Assembly (NCBI RefSeq): GCF_018308945.1
Contig: NZ_CP070501.1
Span: 248,001 to 312,000, forward strand
Source of the DNA: Agrococcus sp. Marseille-Q4369
GTDB taxonomy: Bacteria > Actinomycetota > Actinomycetes > Actinomycetales > Microbacteriaceae
DNA length: 64,000 bases
Direction: 5' to 3'
Shown: positions 31,683-31,762 of the stretch, piece by piece
How the letters are laid out: every line of letters starts with the position of its first letter
Position numbering within the stretch: position 1 is the first letter of the stretch
Made by a program: the position numbers and the translations under genes
The notes under the pieces: model-generated
Databases searched by the model: none
Told to the model about the DNA's origin: nothing
Seen by the model: the letters and a program-made list of their open reading frames with translations, nothing else

Positions 31683-31724
31683 ATGCAGAGCGTGCTGCTC
31701 CTTCGTCGCCGCGGCGAGGCCTGA
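31683..31724 (+). CDS. Putative leuA leader peptide, [13 protein letters not shown]
   Basis: A 13-codon reading frame starting at the predicted transcription start and ending 67 bases before leuA. It has three consecutive leucine codons of three kinds (CTG, CTC, CTT) after a valine, then three arginines. Of these, CTT is rare in this genome and could report on leucyl-tRNA supply. The placement, leucine run and downstream pairing match ribosome-mediated attenuators of branched-chain amino-acid operons. The peptide probably has no function beyond being translated. Confidence 0.65.
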
Positions 31725-31762
31725 ACCCCGGGCTCCCTCGTCGCGGAGGCTGTCCTGCCCGG
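31709..31762 (+). promoter_or_regulatory. Candidate leucine attenuator stems upstream of leuA
   Basis: CCGCGGCGAGG (31709-31719, within the last leader codons) can pair over 11 positions, one G-U, with CCTCGTCGCGG (31736-31746). A second pairing, CCGGGC (31728-31733) with GCCCGG (31757-31762), uses the loop of the first and so competes or forms a pseudoknot. A ribosome stalled at the leucine codons or one that reaches the stop would leave different stems. Which one ends transcription or hides the leuA ribosome site is unclear. Confidence 0.5.

Follow-up and report, generated by a model that had tools for sequence, protein, structure and literature searches.

We found that leuA of Agrococcus sp. 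Marseille-Q4369 is preceded by a member of the LEU element, which was described before actinobacterial leuA by Seliverstov, Putzer, Gelfand and Lyubetsky in 2005 (PMC1262725). In this element, a putative leaderless leader and an RNA pseudoknot would couple leuA to the supply of leucyl-tRNA, most likely at translation initiation; we give this reading a probability of about 0.7. The main on/off pairing is probably that of the leucine codons of the leader with the Shine-Dalgarno sequence of leuA. The original prediction for this locus missed both the published element and the leaderless leader mapped in S. lividans. Its observation, a short leucine frame with stems before leuA, was confirmed. Its interpretation was partly supported.

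The window, that is the whole stretch of 64,000 nucleotides that we analysed, comprises positions 248001-312000 of a 2.74-Mb genome in one contig. All features given below lie on its forward strand. The gene leuA (31792-33555) encodes 2-isopropylmalate synthase according to the NCBIfam models NF002991 and TIGR00970, both of which were above cut-off, and Pfam agreed. In a similarity search that may omit very near records, the best named match of its product was LeuA of Agrococcus terreus (Microbacteriaceae), with 86% identity in the best segment. Upstream of leuA lies a gene for an FtsX-type permease with its stop at 31641, and the gap between the two genes holds all the predicted parts in their predicted places: the -10 box, the frame, the stem and the pairing.

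Regions upstream of leuA were collected from 23 loci of the genus and 107 loci of other members of the family (143 non-genus family genomes had a first leuA match, and 107 of them were read as sequence). After removal of identical leaders, 126 of these 130 loci were kept. A second set contained 80 named leuA loci, seven of which repeat sequences of the first set, leaving 73 that are independent. The 185 elements on which pairing was tested omit the identical leaders, six loci that repeat places, one further identical sequence and four loci (L168, L173, L178 and L181) for which no LL leader or no leuA, leuB or leuC match was found. A covariance model built from 103 family elements, R1, matched 146 of the 148 Microbacteriaceae genomes sampled; the two genomes without a match also lacked a LeuA match. 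R1 matched all of the 80 named leuA loci as well, and 42 of 296 genomes at the level of the phylum. With a broader model, R2, which was built from 52 diverse elements, matches at E 0.001 or better were obtained in 233 of 246 genomes of the class. No Rfam 15 family was above its gathering threshold over the element in covariance-model searches run with gathering and with E-value cut-offs. The placement of the start at the promoter, the leucine run, the three helices discussed below (P1, P2 and P3), the 5-nt spacing and the position of the stop codon in a loop are all conserved.

The leader frame (31683-31724; ATGCAGAGCGTGCTGCTCCTTCGTCGCCGCGGCGAGGCCTGA) has 13 codons and begins six bases downstream of a -10 box, TAGTCT (31671-31676). 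Among the 126 leaders of the genus and family, 124 have TANNNT 6-7 nt upstream of an in-frame start. We examined every ATG and GTG codon within 60 bases upstream of the leucine run. A -10 box at 6-7 nt was present for 124 of 182 in-frame codons and for only one of 203 out-of-frame codons. The same was seen in the 73 further named leuA loci, where 69 had an in-frame start linked to a -10 box, and 70 of 101 in-frame codons but none of 122 out-of-frame codons carried the box. In counts where the start was chosen with a preference for a -10 box, 130 of 130 and 79 of 80 leaders had one; these counts are not tests because the choice itself favoured the box. The linked starts comprised 76 GTG and 48 ATG codons. 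The TTG starts in the first start count arose from a tie rule and not from starts linked to a -10 box. The consensus upstream of the 126 leaders is an extended -10 element, GGTGnTAnnnT, in which no conserved -35 element is present, and no consensus sigma-70 promoter with a -35 element was found upstream of leuA in the window.

A Shine-Dalgarno-like site precedes the leader in four of 126 cases in the first start set and in two of the 124 leaders with linked starts, whereas one precedes leuA in 87 of 126. The leader before leuA is thus probably leaderless and read from the first base of the RNA, as the original prediction had proposed; the promoter-linked starts, the near absence of Shine-Dalgarno sites and the leaderless mapping of the S. 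lividans homologue all argue for it. In this species, transcription would start at 31683. The three different leucine codons that had drawn attention to the frame, CTG CTC CTT, occupy 31695-31703. The last of them is indeed rare, since CTT was used for none of the 182 leucine codons in four genes of the window. By comparison, the leucine runs of the 126 leaders contain 210 CTT and 147 CTC among 442 codons. CTC and CTT are also what complements a purine-rich Shine-Dalgarno sequence, and selection for slow decoding is not separable from pairing here.

A hairpin next to the -10 box had also been pointed out as a perfect 10-bp structure. It is real and ends one base before the box, but it has 11 bp (31644-31670) and is not conserved. 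An abutting hairpin of at least 10 bp occurred in only four of the 22 genus members tested (the window, L003, L011 and L014), so we rejected it as a regulator. It lies just 3' of the permease stop and probably belongs to the end of the permease gene, outside the leucine switch. At the equivalent position, L011 and L014 have a hairpin of 18 bp.

The predicted 11-bp stem between the last codons of the leader and a downstream segment was found exactly as described. We call it P2; its 5' arm lies at 31709-31719, its 3' arm at 31736-31746, and its 10-bp core is CCGCGGCGAG:CTCGTCGCGG. The core helix is complete in 168 of the 185 elements and has nine of ten pairs in the other 17; in mononucleotide-shuffled controls it was complete in seven of 185 and had nine pairs in 45. 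Among the 52 diverse elements, 98.5% of the cells were paired, and two-sided changes numbered 32, compared with an average of 10.2 in shuffles. For the 103 family elements, the corresponding values were 16 and 2.6. Within this family set, five of the ten pairs are invariant, the count of pair types is not above that of shuffles (equalled or exceeded by 286 of 500), and covariation is higher when the arms are slid by -3 (0.108 vs 0.087). In 169 of the 185 elements, P2 follows the leucine run at a distance of exactly 5 nt, and in 184 of them the leader's stop codon falls within the loop of P2.

The second pairing, P3, joins CCGGGC (31728-31733) to GCCCGG (31757-31762). The original prediction took it and P2 for alternative stems. 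The six-base pairing is real and conserved, but the two helices are not alternatives and can coexist: the 5' arm of P3 lies inside the P2 loop, and therefore they form an H-type pseudoknot. For each element, the duplex energy of its own two segments was set against the energies obtained with partners exchanged among sequences; reading the partner in reverse served to control for relatedness and composition. For P1 and P3 the segments were fixed by position. The arms of P2 were chosen for complementarity, so its value in this test is biased. For P3, own partners were strongly favoured in the 185 elements (Z -15.6, reversed control -1.8), with a downstream segment of 40 nt. With a segment of 24 nt, the same held for 57 leaders under 65% identity (Z -6.0, control -1.8) and for 34 other leuA elements (Z -6.7, control 0.4).

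The pseudoknot has also been proposed to bind a regulatory protein. Seliverstov et al. named the orthologues of ML1624, which have a DEAD-box helicase domain, on the grounds of a shared gene distribution and of S. coelicolor mutants (PMC1262725); the translation of the leader would then be secondary. The sequence of P2 is highly conserved beyond its pairing, and the invariance of half of its pairs would suit a protein site. However, this conservation is partly forced by the coding of R-x-E, and a protein site would not need a kept frame, a start placed at the promoter, a leucine run and a stop in the loop. We regard a protein ligand as very improbable.

The pairing that best fits control at translation initiation was absent from the original prediction. 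In this helix, P1, GCTCCT in the leucine codons (31697-31702) pairs with AGGAGC, the Shine-Dalgarno sequence of leuA (31781-31786), and GTCGC (31705-31709) pairs with GCGAC (31776-31780). The 5' arm thus spans 31697-31709 and the 3' arm 31776-31786, and the leucine codons double as the anti-Shine-Dalgarno strand. The duplex of the true site, extended by 31776-31780, has an energy of -18.4 kcal/mol in the window. Own partners were favoured in the 185 elements (Z -9.1, reversed control -1.3), in the 57 leaders under 65% identity (Z -5.8, control 0.3) and in the 34 other leuA elements (Z -3.0, control 1.0). P1 and P3 are therefore supported in both leuA groups. Combinations for which no pairing was predicted gave weaker values in the 185 elements or were equalled by their control. 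Among them, the leucine run against the P3 region gave Z -6.1 (control -1.2), and this region overlaps the initiation region of leuA; when it was limited to 24 nt, Z dropped to -2.7. These comparisons suggest that complementarity between the leucine codons and the Shine-Dalgarno sequence of leuA is maintained. The conservation of the leucine codons and pairings upstream of leuA in the Microbacteriaceae had been suggested as a check of the original prediction, and both the frame and the helices proved to be kept.

AGGAGC is present twice in the window. The upstream copy (31768-31773) also pairs with the leucine codons (-11.9 kcal/mol), and it is possible that it serves them as a decoy. In 15 of the 22 genus members, leuA is preceded by two copies that are 13 bases apart.

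Folding energies were less informative. The nested minimum-energy fold of the window region has -52.7 kcal/mol (z -1.72), and 13 of 200 shuffles were as good. On the window alone, the fold is thus only mildly better than shuffles, and chance could account for it. P1 is absent from this fold, in which the last leucine codon and the arginine codon pair with the region of the leuA start codon. P1 and P2 alone amount to -29.2 kcal/mol; the P3 hairpin by itself has -11.9 kcal/mol. When the leader was blocked in the computed fold, the leuA site was not cleanly freed as a whole. Nested folding does not favour P1; therefore, the case for P1 is comparative and not thermodynamic. The modest z value would also suit an ordinary 5' region in which a short frame and stems have arisen by chance in GC-rich DNA. 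That explanation is hardly credible given the conservation across genera, the family and the class, together with the results of the pairing tests.

The following order of events would account for coupling of leuA to leucyl-tRNA at translation initiation. The RNA would begin at the A of the leader ATG, and a ribosome would translate it at once without a Shine-Dalgarno sequence. When charged tRNA-Leu is ample, the ribosome would pass CTG-CTC-CTT and depart after reaching the stop codon, which lies in the loop of the pseudoknot. The leucine codons could then pair with the Shine-Dalgarno sequence of leuA around the P2/P3 pseudoknot, and leuA would be off. When charged tRNA-Leu is scarce, the ribosome would stall on the leucine codons; because these are the anti-Shine-Dalgarno strand, the leuA site would stay free and leuA would be on. 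We infer the stalling and the order of events, as well as control of translation rather than transcription.

In 2005, the question of how Actinobacteria control leuA was not settled: classical attenuation was judged unlikely, a protein ligand was proposed, and masking of the ribosome-binding site belonged to the scheme. The mutants of the S. coelicolor leader were inconsistent with classical attenuation, and it was because of their unexpected behaviour that Seliverstov et al. judged this mechanism unlikely (PMC1262725). In the model above, the leucine codons are themselves the anti-Shine-Dalgarno bases, and codon mutants therefore alter both at once. This dual role could explain the paradoxical mutants. 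It seems that a simple model is within reach once the comparative data are considered, as the leader would be translated from the first base or nearly so, and its leucine codons are complementary to the leuA ribosome-binding site.

The original prediction favoured ribosome-mediated attenuation of transcription, in which translation of the leader decides whether RNA polymerase stops, either classically or through Rho, and the pseudoknot or alternative stems are the signal. In its classical form this was not supported. No intrinsic terminator was found in 31560-31860, which agrees with the accessible text on S. lividans, where leuA is reported to have no typical Rho-independent terminator (PMC8079986), and the 2005 survey stated that "other attenuator elements are missing" (PMC1262725). 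As no terminator was found, transcription attenuation as originally proposed is unproven. Some observations would nevertheless fit it. Short RNAs have been reported upstream of leuA in M. tuberculosis, with lengths of 85, 65 and 45 nt, and would fit a shortening of transcripts; the accessible parts of the C. glutamicum papers mention attenuator transcripts and possible transcription attenuation. The tail of the leader can also pair with the loop, and this hairpin is contained in the minimum-energy fold of the window. Own partners were favoured for it in the 57 diverged leaders (Z -4.5, control -2.3) and in the 34 other leuA elements (Z -3.4, control -0.9). In all 185 elements, however, it was no better than the reversed control (-5.6 vs -5.8). 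Because this helix is at control level in the 185 elements, modest in the two subsets and absent at leuC, we kept it only as a rival. Attenuation of transcription also leaves the covariation of P1 unexplained, and on balance we consider it unlikely. Rho or a shortening of transcripts may still contribute.

The element is not confined to leuA. According to the R1 table, at least two matches are present in 98 of 148 family genomes. Twenty of the second matches were fetched from family genomes, and all 20 lay before leuC, each with a similarly built leader and a -10 box. Five further cases before leuC were found (L135 and L163-L166), and NCBIfam confirmed that the gene at L163 is leuC. In the window's own genus, no second element was found before leuC in 24 genomes, where the best covariance matches had E 1.2 or worse, and none was seen when the letters upstream of leuC were inspected by eye. 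Among the 25 leuC elements, P1 gave Z -2.8 (control 1.2), or -1.3 (control 0.6) when a 24-nt initiation window was used; P3 showed no gain over swaps (Z -0.7, control 0.7). By these values P1 is weak at leuC, and P3 is a candidate helix there. The element model matched one Microbacteriaceae genome (G100) at five places. At L178, an element precedes both a leuA-type gene, as judged by eye, and leuC.

In other families, LEU-like second elements were found before leuB, at some distance, at six loci (L168, L173, L289, L300, L302 and L303). The leaders associated with leuB carry valine, isoleucine and leucine codons, as in MLWSVRILSCRDEAR and MRFVLILRCRDGA. Between the element and leuB there is a short conserved ORF that is unannotated and ends in ...ALQE[AS]MDRRD... 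or a close variant. It had no Pfam or NCBIfam match above cut-off; one Pfam match, at E 0.0093, fell short of its cut-off. When 246 class genomes were searched with a strict DNA pattern for this ORF, seven places in six genomes matched; leuB was in reach for five of the seven, the exceptions being L308 and L311. At L181, in genome G415, an element-like leader recognised by eye (MSWQKLLVTRRSGV) and a strong hairpin were seen, with no leuA, leuB or leuC match in the fetched stretch. Our tentative reading is that LEU is a distributed module of the leucine pathway and not peculiar to leuA. Its sensing codons would double as the anti-Shine-Dalgarno strand, and its copies stand upstream of leuA, in many Microbacteriaceae also of leuC, and in other families of leuB. 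At leuB, the module may have become adapted to another set of amino acids and another target. No prior report of copies at leuC or leuB was found in a literature search that lay mostly within journals outside subscription.

Among known systems, the ribosome-mediated trp and leu attenuators of E. coli sense charged tRNA by a run of codons in a leader peptide. In E. coli, the leader comes with an untranslated 5' part, with a Shine-Dalgarno sequence and with an intrinsic terminator. The sensing by a codon run is common to E. coli and the window, whereas none of these three parts was found here. Similar leaders are known among Actinobacteria. The accessible texts on C. glutamicum and C. diphtheriae discuss their leuA leaders, which contain a run of leucine codons, as attenuators (PMC4046766, PMC5784534). 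These leaders share the leucine run with the window, and the accessible texts describe no scheme of pairing with leuA. A ribosome-protected upstream ORF before leuA is also known in M. abscessus. In S. lividans, the leuL1 leader MRFGLLLLSCRGEGL was mapped as leaderless by RNA-seq, according to the accessible text (PMC8079986). The window shares with S. lividans a leader peptide before leuA, whose leaderless start was mapped there and is predicted here. A leader identical to that of S. lividans is encoded at L142 and several other loci of our sample.

Leifsonia xyli belongs to the Microbacteriaceae, the family of the window. This species was already included in the genome set of 2005 (PMC1262725). 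The LEU element of that survey corresponds to the window in its upstream frame with a run of leucine codons, in its pseudoknot of two helices, which we matched by the description in the text, and in its base stem of the leucine codons with the Shine-Dalgarno box of leuA; an alternative structure that shares the same base stem was also described (PMC1262725). The element in the window is therefore not a new arrangement. In the 2005 report a protein ligand was favoured, and apart from a transposase gene in B. longum the element was described for leuA alone. Our analysis adds the predicted leaderless placement, tests P1 and P3 across 185 elements, and extends the element to leuC and leuB.
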